Assembly: GCA_022826685.1 (NCBI GenBank)
Contig: JAJDUL010000048.1
Location: forward strand, 1 to 41,796
Source: Gemmatimonadota bacterium
GTDB lineage: Bacteria > Gemmatimonadota > Gemmatimonadetes > Palauibacterales > Palauibacteraceae
Direction of reading: 5' to 3'
Length of the DNA stretch: 41,796 nt
Below are positions 34,581-41,380 of the stretch, in pieces. The notes under the pieces were generated by a model. That model made no database searches, was not told the DNA's origin, and was given only the letters and a program-made list of their open reading frames with translations. Both the position numbers and the translations under genes were made by a program. Each line of letters opens with the position of its first letter. The stretch's first letter is position 1.

Positions 34581-35078
34581 CTAGCCGTCGTCGTGCTCGT
34601 GGACGTGCACGTGGAGCGGGGCGGTGACGAAGTCCGCGTGCCCCGACCCGACCGCACCGTGCATCAGGCTGAACGTGACATCCGTATCGCCCTCCGCCAC
34701 TCCGTGCAGATGTCCTCCGAACTCGCCGGGGGTGTCCTGCTCGAACTCCGCGACGGATTCGTCCTCGACCTCCACCTCCAGGTAGAAGTCGTCGCCGAGC
34801 GCAACCGCCTGCGCGTTGTGGTCTACGAATACGACCTGGATATGGGCGGTTTCCTCACCGGGCTCGACCTCAAGTTCTCCCGTCCACTGTCCGGTGTCAC
34901 CGTTGTAGGCCGCGATGGGCTGGCCGCTCAGCGACAGGATCACGCCCTCGACTTCTTCGGCGTGATCTTCTTCATCGTCATGATCGTGGGGTTCGGTGGC
35001 GCTGTCGCCGCAGGCGGCAAGGACCAGCAGTCCCGCGGTCAGCAGGGCGAATGGCAGTTTCGGCTGGAAGTGTCTCAT
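34581..35078 (-). CDS. His-rich metal-binding lipoprotein
   Basis: A 165-residue lipoprotein (lipobox LAAC, Cys23). Right after the anchor is an acidic His cluster (HDHDDEEDH at 31-39), and the C-terminus ends HVHVHEHDDG, with further His in GGHLHG. The middle is a beta-rich domain. Such clusters bind zinc, copper or nickel. It follows the TonB-dependent receptor by 79 bases on the same strand, with a good GAGGTGA ribosome binding site, so it may hand metal to or from that receptor. The family is not recognised by name; the metal is unproven. Confidence 0.8.
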   Translation of the reverse strand: MRHFQPKLPFALLTAGLLVLAACGDSATEPHDHDDEEDHAEEVEGVILSLSGQPIAAYNGDTGQWTGELEVEPGEETAHIQVVFVDHNAQAVALGDDFYLEVEVEDESVAEFEQDTPGEFGGHLHGVAEGDTDVTFSLMHGAVGSGHADFVTAPLHVHVHEHDDG

Positions 35079-35157: not shown

Positions 35158-37374
35158 CTAGAAGACGACACGATAAGCCACGCTGATGGATCTCCCGGCT
35201 TCGGGCATGATCTCCCTCACGCGCGACAGATGGTTTCGGTACACTGCATTACCAAGGTTCTCCCCCCGTACGGTGATCACGTTCAGCCGCCCAAGAACCG
35301 TGATCCGGACGCCGGCGGAGAGATCGAACACTGTATATCCGTCAGTTGCGCTCTCAAAGGGACCCGTCCGGTCCTGGCGAGCCGCAACCCGTGTTTCCGC
35401 TTCGACGAACCAGTTGCGAGGCGCATAGCCGACGGCGAAGCGTCCCTGCAGCGGAGGGATCAGCGGAAGCGGTTCGTCTGTCGCCACGATCCTGCCATGG
35501 ACGTAGGAAGCCACTGCCTCCACGGTCAGGTCCCCGATCGGCGCCCACTCGAGCGCGCCCTCGAATCCCGTGAGCACCGCGTCTTCCCCCTGAAACTGGA
35601 AGATCGGCAGCCGCACGCGGCTCAGCTCGCCCGTCTCAAGCGGGAAGACGTAGTCCGCGATGGCGTTATGGAACCACGTCACATCGGCGTTCAGCCGGTT
35701 GCCCACAAGACGCATGAACAGGTCGATCCCTGTCCCACGCTCCATCTCGAGCGACGGGTTCCCGACCTCGAAGGCGTAGGCCGCCAGATGGGGACCTTCC
35801 GAGAAGAGTTCGTTGACGCTTGGGGTGCGAAAGGCCCGGGCGACGGAAGCACCCACCGTGAAGCTCGGCGTGAGCTGTGCCAGGGCCCCCAGGGATCCGG
35901 ATGCGGCGCCGAACGATCTCTCGCGGATGTGCCCGATGTCGGATGAGCGGTCCTCCCGGTCGGGCCGCACGCGCACCCAGTCGTAGCGGAGGCCGGCTTC
36001 CACGCGTATCGGATTCAGATCGACCTCCTCCAGCGCGAACACGGCGAAGGAGGTCTGCGTCGAGTTCGGCGTGAAGAGAGAGCCGCCGAATCCGAAATCC
36101 TCCCAGGAACCCCGCGTTCCCACCCCTCCCGAGGAGAAGGGGCCCCAGCCGCTGTGGCGGGCGAGGATCTCGCCGCTCACCGTCTGGCGCTTGAATAGCG
36201 TTCCCAGGATGTCGGGGGGTTCGATCTCCCGGTGTTCGTACCAGGTGTGTCCCGCGTCGATCTCGATGCTCTCGAAGAGTTCGGCGGGCCGGAGTACGCT
36301 GCGCAGCCTGGTCGCGGTCCGCTCCATCTCCACGCGAACTCCGGCCGCGTGACCCCCGACGAATCCTCCGGGGATGCCGTAGTCGTTGCCGTAGTAGCGG
36401 AAGGTCGCGCCGGCATGTCCCCAGTCGTCCACCCACGAGGTCCCGCCGGAAATCTCCCGGATATCCGTACTCGTGTTCTGCAGGGGTCCGACCGGGGTCT
36501 CCAGATCGCCGCTGCTGCGACGCGAGAGTTCCAGCCGCACGGGGATATGGTCCGTCACGCCGTACGTGAGATTCAGGCTTCCGCTCGCAGCGTTGCTGAC
36601 GCTCTGTCCCTGGAGGGTGAACGCGCCCGTAAGGTGGTGTGGCACCGATGAGGGCACGTCGTCGCGCACTACGTTGATGACGCCGCCCAGCGCGTTGCTG
36701 CCGTACAGAATCGCACCCGGCCCCCGGATGACCTCGACGCGGCGCGCCGACGATGGATCGATCGCCGTGGCGTGGTCGGGACCGCTCGCAAACTCGTCGC
36801 CGACCCGTTCCCCATCCTCGAGCATCAGGATGCGGTCTCCGCTGAGCCCCCGGATCACCGGGTGCGCAGAGGCCGGCCCCATGGTGCTCACCGCCAGTCC
36901 CGGCTCGGAGGACAGCGTCTCCGCCAGGGTTCCGGCCAGGCGACGCTGCAGACTCTCCCCCGCGAATACGCTGGTTGGGCGCAACACTTCGTTCGCCGCG
37001 CGCGCCACCACGGATCCCGTGACGACGAGATCCGGCAGGGGGATGGGACTGGCTTCCATCTCCACGACCACGATCTCTTCGCCCGACGCGTCGACTTCCA
37101 GCGAGACCGTGCGGTAGCCCAGCCGTTCGACCCGCACGGTGTAGATGCGCGGGCCCGGCACCGGGACATGGAACGTCCCGTCACCGTGCGAGACCGCCCG
37201 GCCACCCGACGCAGCGATGGAGACCAGGGCGCCGGCGAGAGGCTCGTTGGAGTCGGCATCGCGCACGATGCCCTCGATCTCACCCGCGTGCTCCACCTGC
37301 GCGGACGAGCCGACGGCTCCAAGAGCCATTGCCAATACGGCCGGGACGAGACCGGCCAGACGCCTTGTCACCAT
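35158..37374 (-). CDS. TonB-dependent outer-membrane receptor, probable metal uptake
   Basis: A 738-residue receptor. After a signal peptide (about 1-26) comes a CarboxypepD_reg-like domain (about 31-108), then the plug (about 118-225) with HPVIRGLSGDRILMLEDGERV (pieces HPVIRGLSGDR, ILMLEDGERV) and VEVIRGPGAILYGSNALGG, then a barrel of about 500 residues ending in Phe (YRVVF), the usual BAM signal. The plug and overall pattern resemble ZnuD- or copper-type receptors, and the neighbours are a His-rich lipoprotein, a His/Cys-rich small protein and CopC, so a metal or metallophore is likely; the exact ligand is inference. Confidence 0.92.
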   Translation of the reverse strand: MVTRRLAGLVPAVLAMALGAVGSSAQVEHAGEIEGIVRDADSNEPLAGALVSIAASGGRAVSHGDGTFHVPVPGPRIYTVRVERLGYRTVSLEVDASGEEIVVVEMEASPIPLPDLVVTGSVVARAANEVLRPTSVFAGESLQRRLAGTLAETLSSEPGLAVSTMGPASAHPVIRGLSGDRILMLEDGERVGDEFASGPDHATAIDPSSARRVEVIRGPGAILYGSNALGGVINVVRDDVPSSVPHHLTGAFTLQGQSVSNAASGSLNLTYGVTDHIPVRLELSRRSSGDLETPVGPLQNTSTDIREISGGTSWVDDWGHAGATFRYYGNDYGIPGGFVGGHAAGVRVEMERTATRLRSVLRPAELFESIEIDAGHTWYEHREIEPPDILGTLFKRQTVSGEILARHSGWGPFSSGGVGTRGSWEDFGFGGSLFTPNSTQTSFAVFALEEVDLNPIRVEAGLRYDWVRVRPDREDRSSDIGHIRERSFGAASGSLGALAQLTPSFTVGASVARAFRTPSVNELFSEGPHLAAYAFEVGNPSLEMERGTGIDLFMRLVGNRLNADVTWFHNAIADYVFPLETGELSRVRLPIFQFQGEDAVLTGFEGALEWAPIGDLTVEAVASYVHGRIVATDEPLPLIPPLQGRFAVGYAPRNWFVEAETRVAARQDRTGPFESATDGYTVFDLSAGVRITVLGRLNVITVRGENLGNAVYRNHLSRVREIMPEAGRSISVAYRVVF

Positions 37375-38140: not shown

Positions 38141-38524
38141 ATGGGCAGATGGATTCGAAGAGGGGCAGCCGTCGTGGCGACGGCCATGTTCGCGACGGCA
38201 GGCGTCTTTGTCGGCGCCCACCTCGCCCTCGAGGCGTCGTCTCCGGAGAAGGACGCGACGGTGACGACCAGCCCCGGGACGGTCACGCTATGGTTCACGG
38301 AGGCCCCGCAAATGGCCGGGACGTCCGTCCGGCTCCTGCCGAAGGGGGGCGAACCGCTCGACCTCGAGCCGGCGACGGCGAAGGAGGACGACCCGAGCGT
38401 CGTCGTGCTGGATGTGAGCGAGACGCTCGCGGATGGCGACTACGAGGTGATGTGGCGCGCCATGTCGCAGGACGGCCACACGATCCGCGGCGACTTCGGC
38501 TTCACGGTGCAAACCGCCCGCTGA
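38141..38524 (+). CDS. copC: CopC-family periplasmic copper-binding protein
   Basis: A 127-residue exported protein. The signal peptide ends at Ala26, leaving His27 as the mature N-terminus, with the family-type start HLALEASSPEKDATV. Asp111 and His113 in QDGHTIRGDFGF complete the copper(II) site used by CopC proteins (N-terminal amine and His brace, Asp, His). Length is normal for a single CopC domain; no CopD domain or gene is attached. An upstream in-frame ATG at 38081 with GGAGG has the better ribosome binding site but would make a 46-residue Arg-rich signal region. It is divergent from the DUF2946-like gene. Confidence 0.88.
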   Translation: MGRWIRRGAAVVATAMFATAGVFVGAHLALEASSPEKDATVTTSPGTVTLWFTEAPQMAGTSVRLLPKGGEPLDLEPATAKEDDPSVVVLDVSETLADGDYEVMWRAMSQDGHTIRGDFGFTVQTAR

Positions 38525-38583: not shown

Positions 38584-38907
38584 CTACAGTTCGGCGAGCG
38601 CCTCGGCGTTGAAGCCGACCAGGAGCGTGGCTCCCGCCAGCACGATCGGCGCGCGGTACTTCCCCGTGCGCCCCTTGAGTGCGTCGAGTTCGGTCTCGGC
38701 CGGCTTCAGGTCGCGCCGGCTCCTTCCCTTCGCGATGACCACGCGCTCGGCGGCCGCCAGCAGCGCCCGCACGTCGTCATCCGTGAGCGGCGACTTCGTG
38801 GTGAACCGTTCCTCCGCGATCGTCGCGCCGATCTCGTCGAACACCGCACGGGTGCGCTTGCAGCTCGTTCAGCCGGGGCGCTGGTAATAGAGCGCAATTT
38901 CGGTCAT
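38584..38907 (-). CDS. ArsC-family selenoprotein (in-frame TGA at codon 13)
   Basis: Read through TGA at 38869-38871, this gives a 107-residue thioredoxin-fold protein: MTEIALYYQRPG-U-TSCKRTRA, then a helix, a KGRSRRDLKP segment and the C-terminal APIVLAGATLLVGFNAEAL, the pattern I recall of the ArsC family (seleno)proteins. Sec13 and Cys16 form a UxxC redox pair where relatives have CxxC. ATG 38907 has a strong GAGGAG ribosome binding site (38914-38919) overlapping the DinB stop, and reading frame and similarity continue on both sides of the TGA. A hairpin of bacterial SECIS shape starts two bases after it. A conventional reading gives either a 12-codon peptide or an 86-codon gene from GTG 38844 that lacks a ribosome binding site. 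The reductant and substrate are unknown; arsenate is one option. Confidence 0.88.
38838..38868 (-). promoter_or_regulatory. Bacterial SECIS-like element
   Basis: Counting from the first base after the TGA, bases 2-6 pair with 27-31 (CGAGC with GTTCG, one G-T wobble), then an asymmetric internal loop, then bases 13-16 with 21-24 (CGCA with TGCG) closed by loop CCCG. The apical loop lies 17-20 bases after the Sec codon and contains a G, as bacterial SECIS elements require. Hand-folded only. Confidence 0.6.
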
Positions 38908-38917
38908 CTCGATCTCC

Positions 38918-39448
38918 TCAATCTTCGGCCGGAGAGGCCAGGTATCGTTCCCTGAGCACATCCCGGTGGTGAAGCTCGTGACCGGCGATGATATGGATGA
39001 GCGCCCGCACCGTGCACTCGGCGCCGCTCGCGACTCCCCGGCGCGAAAGCGCGTCTTCGTCGAGCGAGGCGAAGAAGGCCGCGTTCGCGGTGCGCAGCGC
39101 ACGGAATTCATGCAGCAGTTCCCGGATGGGGCGCTCGGCCGCGTTGGAGGCTGCGGCCCATTCATTCTGATCCATCCCCGGCAGCTCCGCCGAATCCGCG
39201 CGGGCGATGTGCAGTGCGCGGTAGGAGAAGATCCGCTCGGTGTCGATCACATGGCCCAGCACCTCCCGGCACGTCCACTTCCCCGGCTCGTACGCGAAGT
39301 GCTCGCGTTCACGGGGGAGGCCGGAGAGCAGCGCGTCGAGCGCGGCAGGTGCTTCGCGGAGGACATCGGCCAGGGGCCGGTCGGTCGGCACGCGGTCGAT
39401 GTAGGTCGAGTAGTAGTCGCCGTGTTCGTCGGGTCCGGGTCGTTTCAT
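38918..39448 (-). CDS. DinB-family four-helix protein
   Basis: A 176-residue cytosolic protein of the DinB/YfiT-like superfamily. The His-based metal site is visible: the His in CREVLGHVIDTER (about 67) and the pair in IIAGHELHHRDVL (about 156-161). YEPGKWTCREVLGHV is a typical start of the second helix. Members are metal-dependent thiol S-transferases or hydrolases, some using bacillithiol or mycothiol; substrate here is unknown. Its stop overlaps the ribosome binding site of the selenoprotein gene, so the two are co-translated. Confidence 0.9.
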   Translation of the reverse strand: MKRPGPDEHGDYYSTYIDRVPTDRPLADVLREAPAALDALLSGLPREREHFAYEPGKWTCREVLGHVIDTERIFSYRALHIARADSAELPGMDQNEWAAASNAAERPIRELLHEFRALRTANAAFFASLDEDALSRRGVASGAECTVRALIHIIAGHELHHRDVLRERYLASPAED

Positions 39449-39494
39449 GGCCGGCAAGCTATCGACCTCGCCGTCCGGGCGACATCTTGTCCGC

Positions 39495-40439
39495 ATGAAC
39501 CACCGCTCAATTCCCATCGCGACGGTCGTCTGTGCCCTGCTCGGAACGGCTTCGGCCGCCCACGCGCAGGGGGCTCCGGGGGCGTGCGTCGCCCCGGGAT
39601 CCTCGCTGCGCCTCGACCACGTACCCATCGCGGTCGAGGACCTCGAGGCTCTCTCGCAGCGACTCACCGACGAGTTCGGCTTCCGGATCCGGAGTCCCGA
39701 GCCGGACGAGAACGGTCTTGCGACGGCCTCGATTCCGTTCGGCGACGGGACCCGGCTCGAACTGAGAACGATGCAGGGCGCCCCCGGCCCCGATGCGCCC
39801 GGCCCCGATGCGCCCGCCCCCGATGCGCCGGGCGACTTGGAGGCGCTGCGCTACGCGGACCTCATCGCCGATGGCGGAGGCGGGGCGTATCTCGCCTTCT
39901 CCGGTCCGGCGCCGGCAGGCGTCCTGGAGATCGCAGGCGAGCTTGAACCCGAGTTGGCCGCGATCTCCGCCGGAGCGGGCAGCCGGGTCGCCTTCCCCCG
40001 AGGCCACCCGCTGCACCCGGTGTTCTTCGTCATCTCCGATCGCGAGAGCGTGACGTCGGCGGACCCGGCGCCGCACCCGAACGGCGCCCGCGGACTCGAG
40101 GCGGTGTGGGTGATGGTGGAAGACCCGGAGCGCCTCACGCGTTTCCTGCTCGCCTTCGGGGCCCGCGACTGCGGCCCGTCGCGACACCCCGAACATTTGC
40201 ACGGACGCGCCGTCGGGATCCGCGGCGGGACCGTCTACGTCGTGGATGCGCGCCTCTGGATGGCCGATCCGGAGTCCGCTCCGGTCGTGTCGCTGACCGT
40301 GCGCGGCGGGCCCGAGTCCGTCTCTGACAACATCGTGCTCGGCAACGCCGGCGGGCTCTGGATCGAACTGCGGCCTTCCGACGCCGGCTCCGATCCGCCC
40401 AATCCGGCCAGCCCGGCCGACCCCGAGGAGAACGGATGA
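39495..40439 (+). CDS. Exported VOC/glyoxalase-like protein
   Basis: A 314-residue protein with a signal peptide ending about residue 25 (AAHAQ). The first VOC module begins LRLDHVPIAVEDLEALSQRL with the typical H...(30)...strand pattern, and a second begins at RGLEAVWVMVEDPERLTRFL. The full H/E/H/E metal set is not evident, so it may be non-enzymatic or an odd member. A PDAPGPDAPAPDAP linker (about 98-111) comes from a 15-bp tandem repeat. Its stop overlaps the MBL hydrolase ATG by four bases. Confidence 0.75.
   Translation: MNHRSIPIATVVCALLGTASAAHAQGAPGACVAPGSSLRLDHVPIAVEDLEALSQRLTDEFGFRIRSPEPDENGLATASIPFGDGTRLELRTMQGAPGPDAPGPDAPAPDAPGDLEALRYADLIADGGGGAYLAFSGPAPAGVLEIAGELEPELAAISAGAGSRVAFPRGHPLHPVFFVISDRESVTSADPAPHPNGARGLEAVWVMVEDPERLTRFLLAFGARDCGPSRHPEHLHGRAVGIRGGTVYVVDARLWMADPESAPVVSLTVRGGPESVSDNIVLGNAGGLWIELRPSDAGSDPPNPASPADPEENG
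39786..39830. repeat. 15-bp tandem repeat inside the VOC gene
   Basis: Three successive copies of a unit close to GGCCCCGATGCGCCC (the third has two changes) encode the PDAPG linker. The repeat preserves the frame. Confidence 0.75.
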
Positions 40440-41380
40440 CGATCCACACGCTCGACGCGCGGACTTCCATCGTCGACCTGAAGTTCCAGGGTTTCGATCT
40501 CGCCATCGGCACCGGAGTCCTGGAAACCGGGGACGGAGTCGCGCTCGTCGACCCCGGGCCCACGACCTGTCTCCTGGCGCTGGAGGCCGGGCTCGGCGAA
40601 GCCGGGTTCGGCCTCGCCGACGTGCGCGCGATCCTGATCACGCATATCCACCTCGACCACGCCACGGCCGCCGGCACGATCGCGAGCCGGGTGCCTGAAG
40701 CGCGCGTCTACGTTCACCCGATCGGCGCGATTCACATGGTCCGGCCCGAGCGTCTCCTCGCCTCCGCCGGCCGCATCTACGGCGACCGGATGGAGACGCT
40801 GTGGGGAGAGTTCCTACCGGTGCCCGCGGAGTCCGTCACCGAGGTGGACGAGGGGGACGCCCTGCAACTCGGCAACCGCGCGCTGCGCGTCGCCTACACG
40901 CCCGGCCACGCGAAGCACCACGTCGCCTACTTCGAGGAGGACGCGGGGACGGCGTGGGTGGGCGATGTGGGCGGCATCCGCATCCCGCCGGGAGGAGTGA
41001 TCCCGGTCACCCCGGTACCCGACATCGACGTCGAAGGCTGGAACGCGAGCATGGAGCGGGTCATGGCGTGGGATCCCGACCGCATCATCCCGACCCACTT
41101 CGGAGCGGTCGAGGACCCGGCCGCCCACTTCGCGGAACTCCGCGACGAACTCGCGCGCTGGGCCCGCACCGTGCGCGAGTCGCTGGGGAACGAGGACCCG
41201 GCGGATCCGGATACGTCCACCGACCCCGCCCGGGCCCGGGCCTTCGCGGCGTGGGTCGAGGAAGACCTGCGCGGGCGCATGCCGGCGGAGCCCGTGGACA
41301 CCTACATCAATGCTTTCGGCGCCGGCGACTCGTGGTGGGGCCTCGCCCGCTACTGGCGCAAGCGAGCCACGGCCGCATGA
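40436..41380 (+). CDS. MBL-fold metallo-hydrolase
   Basis: A 314-residue cytosolic metallo-beta-lactamase-fold enzyme. The metal signature THIHLDHA (His70, His72, Asp74, His75) is intact, with further ligands His158 in TPGHAKHH, Asp177 in WVGDVGG and His221 in IPTHFG. The usual two-metal site is therefore complete. The substrate could be a thioester, lactone or phosphodiester; it cannot be deduced. ATGA overlaps join it to the VOC gene before and the small membrane gene after. Confidence 0.92.
   Translation: MTIHTLDARTSIVDLKFQGFDLAIGTGVLETGDGVALVDPGPTTCLLALEAGLGEAGFGLADVRAILITHIHLDHATAAGTIASRVPEARVYVHPIGAIHMVRPERLLASAGRIYGDRMETLWGEFLPVPAESVTEVDEGDALQLGNRALRVAYTPGHAKHHVAYFEEDAGTAWVGDVGGIRIPPGGVIPVTPVPDIDVEGWNASMERVMAWDPDRIIPTHFGAVEDPAAHFAELRDELARWARTVRESLGNEDPADPDTSTDPARARAFAAWVEEDLRGRMPAEPVDTYINAFGAGDSWWGLARYWRKRATAA

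Follow-up and report, generated by a model that had tools for sequence, protein, structure and literature searches.

A conserved in-frame UGA codon, predicted to encode selenocysteine, in an ArsC/Spx-fold protein gene of a Gemmatimonadota bacterium

Gene structure and truncated annotation

The window analysed here is the whole 41,796-nucleotide stretch of contig JAJDUL010000048.1 (contig C52 in our numbering) of the Gemmatimonadota assembly GCA_022826685.1 (3.28 Mb, 90.85% complete). On its minus strand lies a gene for an ArsC/Spx-fold protein with an in-frame TGA at codon 13. We consider it very probable that this conserved UGA is decoded as selenocysteine (Sec), giving a protein with a U-T-S-C site whose partner is likely a thiol system such as bacillithiol. 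The elements of the gene are:

38584..38907, minus strand: predicted ArsC/Spx-fold selenoprotein gene, 107 residues, ATG at 38907, stop TAG at 38586-38584
38869..38871, minus strand: in-frame TGA, codon 13, predicted Sec (U13 of U-T-S-C), conserved and aligned with the first Cys of the CTSC motif of Spx
38860..38862, minus strand: TGC, Cys16, predicted resolving residue of UxxC, invariant in alignments of 14 and of 39 rows
38914..38919, minus strand: ribosome binding site GAGGAG in the sequence, 6 nt 5' of the ATG and sharing bases with the stop codon of the gene upstream

The ATG at 38907-38905 opens a run of 12 codons, start included, which is followed by the TGA at 38871-38869 and a frame that stays open to the TAG. 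With the TGA read as U the protein has 107 residues, the N-terminus MTEIALYYQRPG-U-TSCKRTRAVF and the redox motif G-U-T-S-C (U13-T-S-C16), which is of the UxxC type. A first-pass annotation of this DNA had described the ribosome binding site, the ATG, the 12 codons, the TGA and the continuous frame, and all of these are borne out; its frame was right, while the minus strand (38907 down to 38584) went unstated.

The same annotation held that gene callers would report a truncated gene of 86 codons, and exactly that truncation is seen. In the standard list of open reading frames (ORFs) the sole entry in this frame is an 86-aa ORF with a GTG start (38584-38844), 29 of the 48 database homologues are exactly 86 aa long, and in none of the 48 is a residue aligned to codon 13. 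One database relative (P0049) begins immediately 3' of the Sec codon, and another truncated relative (P0010) carries the NCBI name 'ArsC family (seleno)protein'. The selenoprotein is conserved, yet the searched databases hold only stubs that lack the active-site residue (48/48). In the AlphaFold2 model of the window protein (mean predicted local distance difference test score 95.0), strand 1 and the redox motif would be missing from the product of the 86-aa ORF.

Conservation of the TGA and the selenocysteine machinery

A sample of 100 relatives was searched, 17 of them of the genus, including the window's own genome. A homologue was present in 32 genomes, with exactly one TGA in each (32/32), and the TGA stood directly before [TL][SG]CK in all 30 of the homologues that were read. 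A named genome collection was scanned with the peptide TSCKRT[QR][EA][FV], the Sec codon being left out of the query, and TGA was found at the Sec codon in 48 of 48 loci encoding a relative; because this query was derived from proteins with the TGA, the scan would miss Cys forms whose flanking residues differ. The two counts overlap, since loci L051-L059 are nine of the genus genomes. By name, most of these loci are from Gemmatimonadota and Candidatus Palauibacter, and the remainder include Myxococcales, Acidobacteria, Planctomycetota, Latescibacteria and four Gammaproteobacteria bins. Bin names can be wrong, as one of the latter (L071) appears to correspond to a genome placed in the class of the window.

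In a sample of the phylum, 87 of 395 genomes gave 89 matches, 83 with one TGA and 6 without. Four of the TGA-less matches cover the motif; they come from three genomes belonging to a single family and read YCTTC, ECTTC (its start shortened), YCTTC and HCKSC there. A selA match was found in none of five genomes of that family (the three CxxC-bearing ones and two more). The matches in G064 and G141 were dropped as partial or spurious, covering only profile positions 50-103 and 47-101. The one Cys protein that was scanned has the ArsC fold and scored 35.5 bits with NF041106 and 59.5 with TIGR01617.

Among 13 distinct genus sequences the ratio of nonsynonymous to synonymous differences per site (pN/pS) was 0.302 over the 12 codons that precede the TGA, against 0.291 beyond codon +10. 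Such coding evolution on both sides argues for translation through the TGA, since a stop there should let at least one side drift.

The genome of the window encodes tRNA-Sec (79.7 bits, gathering score 47), SelA (498, cut-off 267.9), SelB (369.6, cut-off 242.25) and SelD (369.1, cut-off 125). The SelD match (G000:C35:13378-14298, L016) holds one in-frame TGA, and SelD is thus probably itself a selenoprotein. Some match to the tRNA-Sec, SelB and SelD models was obtained in all 14 control genomes, over the cut-off in only 5, 2 and 2 of them, respectively; because of these weak matches only those over the cut-off were relied on.

The gene and selA occur together. SelA was over the cut-off in 32 of 32 relatives with the gene versus 50 of 68 without it (Fisher two-sided p 5.5e-4, uncorrected for kinship), in eight of eight further TGA-bearing genomes tested, and in all 10 genomes behind chosen named loci, four of which are by name outside the phylum and one of which has no group name. 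Of the genus genomes, G006 has neither selA over the cut-off nor the selenoprotein gene, and G013 has selA and no gene. The first-pass annotation had named three grounds on which its proposal would fall, a genome devoid of Sec machinery, a sequencing error at the TGA and homologues without Cys at this column; none held, as the complete machinery is present, the same TGA recurs in many independent assemblies and ArsC-fold relatives do have Cys there. Its view that the organism decodes UGA as Sec is likewise supported by the machinery and by the conservation of the TGA, from which Sec insertion itself is inferred.

More distant Sec relatives (L133-L140) read U-I-T-C, U-N-T-C, U-K-T-C, U-S-T-C or U-T-T-C, the UxxC pattern being kept in 8 of 8. 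The one that was scanned, L133, matched no NCBIfam model at E<=1e-3.

Protein family

With Cys written for Sec, the window protein scores 26.2 bits with the Pfam ArsC family PF03960 (gathering score 24). It is not listed by the arsenate reductase model TIGR00014 at E<=1, and 'ArsC' should therefore not be taken as 'arsenate reductase'; the ArsC-family label given earlier stands at the Pfam level and fails in that narrower sense. The Spx/MgsR model TIGR01617 gives 24.8, below its cut-off of 75.05. For the model of ArsC family (seleno)proteins, NF041106, relatives L060 (79.2) and L061 (82.1) fall below the curated cut-off of 85 and L035 (106.2) and L073 (136.4) exceed it; the UxxC redox motif expected of its members is present in the window protein. 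A Pfam ArsC profile search of the window's own genome returned nothing at E<=1e-3, neither an ordinary ArsC-family protein nor the selenoprotein, which the model probably missed since the TGA costs it the Cys column.

The nearest solved fold is that of Spx from Bacillus subtilis, and Sec13 aligns with the first Cys of its CTSC motif. Spx differs in having Cys for Sec, in its length of 131-132 residues and in being a transcription regulator, and the window protein is far below the cut-off of the Spx model. The earlier claim that the TGA sits at the first Cys of a CxxC motif agrees with the Cys found there in ArsC-fold relatives, namely Spx and the CxxC proteins of selA-less relatives.

Selenoproteins of this general kind are already published, so that the window protein is no new kind. 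In the Global Ocean Sampling data, 42 selenoproteins and 238 Cys homologues of the UxxC 'Arsenate reductase 2' (cd03032) were reported (PMC2398784), a UxxC ArsC-like selenoprotein is also listed in PMC9312934, and an 'Arsenate reductase-like protein, UxxC' is tied to NF041106 in PMC13188914, a review according to which nearly all such selenoproteins were identified through bioinformatics. The window protein shares with those of PMC2398784 and PMC13188914 the ArsC fold, Sec as first residue of UxxC and a bacterial Sec machinery. The clade of the window differs from the NF041106 type in its hairpin, GCACC-CGUGC-GGUGY, and in its DinB-like upstream gene, the class-wide stem being CNCRRG and the loop AGUUU. 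The Sec arsenate reductase of the Sargasso Sea (UxxS, PMC1088965) is alike in belonging to the ArsC family and in having Sec at the attacking position; it has Ser at +3, where the window protein has Cys, and the arsenate reductase model is unmatched here.

Sequence downstream of the UGA

A candidate for the selenocysteine insertion sequence (SECIS) follows the UGA:

38841..38855, minus strand: apical hairpin proposed as SECIS, GCACC-CGUGC-GGUGU, with a stem of 5 bp, a loop of 5 nt whose second base is G, and a spacing of 18 nt from the UGA

Its stem, loop and spacing agree with a published SECIS rule (PMC13188914). In all, 91 TGA-bearing sequences, in which loci of one genome may count more than once, were typed by CGTG at positions 22-25 from the TGA, so that the signature of the window type is partly built in. 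The window type comprises 25 sequences (14 distinct over 48 nt) that share GCACC-CGUGM-GGUGY at positions 17-31, and all five stem pairs are retained in 11 of 11 distinct 40-nt sequences (type A), which vary little. In the genus set, formed without sorting by hairpin type, wobble positions are unusually invariant after the TGA: a single codon is used at 7 of 9 codons within +1 to +10, compared with 13 of 44 in the rest of the gene (Fisher p 0.019). The synonymous difference pS is 0.129 versus 0.284, a sign of synonymous constraint.

The class-wide type comprises 66 sequences (43 distinct over 40 nt) with a hairpin formed by positions 20-25 and 31-36 and the loop AGUUU in most. Pair 21-35 is present in 43 of 43 (GC 33, UA 6, CG 3, AU 1), pair 20-36 in 35 of 43, and pair 23-33 is AU in 33, GC in 7 and mismatched in 3. 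In a covariation test of 18 class-wide sequences, chosen to spread variation, 99.1% of the cells pair in this hairpin and at most 65% in slid versions, and the covariation value was 0.388 versus 0.183 in shuffles, none of 500 shuffles reaching the observed value. Alone, the window hairpin folds with -5.0 kcal/mol, versus -7.4 and -7.9 in the two sister-lineage hairpins tested. The evidence for a SECIS is thus good in the sister lineages, where the hairpin shows compensatory changes, but no more than indirect in the window itself.

An alternative 4-bp stem (16-19 with 24-27) was rejected, being broken in one of 11 sequences (Acidobacteria L061); the preference for the 5-bp stem over it is weak owing to the little variation among these. 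RNAalifold, applied to the genus sequences, returned a different fold that no covariation supports.

The DinB-like neighbour and bacillithiol

Directly upstream of the selenoprotein gene lies:

38918..39448, minus strand: DinB_2/mycothiol-S-transferase-like gene, PF12867 75.2 bits (cut-off 24.8), PF04978 34.6 (cut-off 27)

The stop of this gene is the TGA at 38920-38918, 10 nt 5' of the selenoprotein ATG on the same strand. By tblastn, all 13 other window-type loci of the genus have the DinB-like gene next to that of the selenoprotein, as does the Myxococcales locus L060, where the identity is 67%. In the two genus genomes that lack the selenoprotein (G006 and G013) there is no DinB match at E<=1e-20. 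Clustering of neighbouring ORFs over the 48 named loci placed the DinB gene in 10 of them, and the remaining groups were common to close kin, many of them being ORFs read in the wrong frame.

The histidines H66, H157 and H161 of the DinB-like protein are invariant in the window and 13 other aligned loci. Locus L034 was missed by the histidine motif search, and its contig, read as L059, has GHV and GHEIHH. The spacing is similar to that of H67, H160 and H164, the metal ligands of BstA, one of the STL (DinB/YfiT) bacillithiol S-transferases BstA-H (PMC5815605), which the neighbour also resembles in matching both DinB_2 and the mycothiol-S-transferase family; the available portion of that paper mentions no selenoprotein partner of BstA-H. 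The genome further encodes the bacillithiol synthase BshC (326.7 bits, cut-off 265.8). Taken together, the DinB-like neighbour, its histidine triad and BshC make a link of the selenoprotein to bacillithiol plausible.

In the literature searched no report was found of a link between the selenoprotein sub-clade and a DinB-like gene, and in the main text of the Palauibacterales paper PMC10469786 'bacillithiol' is absent and 'selen' occurs once. The sub-clade linked to DinB is new within that literature, as are its sequence signature downstream of the UGA and the evidence from presence and absence. The neighbour offers a partner open to experiment for a family that is known from sequence.

One genome of the same genus, G012 (L050 / L087), has the class-wide selenoprotein type and not the DinB-linked one, which suggests a replacement or a separate acquisition. 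Its sole DinB match (45%) is on another contig.

Interpretation and alternatives

The decoding of UGA as Sec is strongly supported by these sequence comparisons. SelB and tRNA-Sec, with a SECIS in the codons just 3' of the UGA, would insert Sec. The selenolate of Sec13, at the start of the first helix, may then attack a disulfide or another oxidised substrate, and Cys16 would resolve the selenenyl-sulfide as in dithiol glutaredoxins. The protein is likely a selenol-disulfide oxidoreductase, possibly of a bacillithiol system. That its physiological partner is likely a low-molecular-weight thiol system such as bacillithiol, and not arsenate, is suggested more weakly, by the probable co-production of the selenoprotein and a thiol-transferase-like protein of the DinB type in a bacterium that has a bacillithiol synthase. 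Only TGA forms were found in the sub-clade, which points to a function in which Sec is hard to replace. A more specific and tentative proposal is that the two genes form a bacillithiol system. A DinB-type S-transferase would be made together with its own predicted Sec redoxin (a 'seleno-bacilliredoxin'), UGA ending the first protein and, some 50 nt further along the mRNA, encoding Sec in the second; the pair may have been transferred between Gemmatimonadota and Myxococcota as one unit.

Several observations weigh against parts of this interpretation. The window protein reaches 72.7 with NF041106, below the cut-off of 85, and the CxxC forms found are, judged from the one scanned, not close orthologues. 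The first-pass annotation had also claimed a hairpin, and folding of the single window sequence resolves no SECIS: over the 52 nt counted from the TGA, the predicted fold is no more stable than expected by chance (z +1.41; 189 of 200 shuffled sequences do at least as well), and in the 40-nt window sequence another fold is preferred and the proposed stem has a base-pair probability of 0.0. The published rule is powerless here, as 4993 of 5000 random synonymous recodings give a hairpin of at least 4 bp that agrees with it. Two of five measures in the class-wide test (both-side pair changes and further pair types) do not exceed shuffles. Neither the window nor eight relatives have an Rfam match above the gathering score, the two matches in the gene being at chance level (E 0.52 and 1.8). 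The DinB-like gene is beside the selenoprotein gene in none of 67 other loci, class-wide relatives included, whose upstream flanks span 0.5 to 3 kb, and more distant genes of the DinB kind are common, 69 of 100 relatives having a match at E<=1e-20. The bacillithiol link is drawn from a single neighbour gene and BshC.

Two other functions can be considered for a Sec-containing product. An Spx-like redox switch, in which oxidants are sensed by U13/C16 and transcription is altered through binding of the protein to RNA polymerase, appears improbable, given a TIGR01617 score far under the cut-off and 107 residues against 131-132 in B. subtilis Spx chains; a small redoxin acting alone would fit just as well. 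A genuine arsenate reductase that attacks through Sec would accord with the PF03960 score above the cut-off and with the UxxS enzymes of PMC1088965, but it is less likely still, since TIGR00014 does not list the protein, the motif is UxxC rather than UxxS and no ars family was detected among the scanned neighbour genes.

Explanations without Sec fare worse. If the TGA were a genuine stop, a lesion of a pseudogene or a mistake of assembly, only the 86-aa ORF held by the databases would be made; this is very hard to reconcile with the same TGA in many independent assemblies, with a pN/pS about equal before and after it, with the loss of strand 1 and the redox motif from such a product, and with a gene that among the 100 relatives occurs only with selA. 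A genome-wide reassignment of UGA to another amino acid would explain an in-frame TGA without stop function, yet is scarcely credible: TGA is the stop of the upstream DinB-like gene in all 14 loci read, the genome has the full Sec machinery, and the TGA occupies a Cys-equivalent column.

Other genes of the neighbourhood

Glyoxalase_3-like and metallo-beta-lactamase-fold genes (39447-41380, plus strand) diverge from the DinB gene, and both are present in 8 of the 9 loci L051-L059. At L059, a divergent genus member of which only 0.8 kb lies downstream, and at L060, the glyoxalase-like, metallo-beta-lactamase-fold, CopC and TonB receptor neighbours are unmatched. The Acidobacteria relative L061 has a different upstream ORF, peptidase-like as read by eye. 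The selenoprotein gene faces a convergent CopC-domain gene (38141-38524, plus strand; PF04234, 79.8 bits), which 12 of the 13 other window-type loci of the genus retain. Farther along, a TonB-dependent receptor with a carboxypeptidase-like N-terminal domain (35158-37374, minus strand) adjoins a His-rich ORF without Pfam match (34581-35078, minus strand), and the two are perhaps a metal uptake pair.
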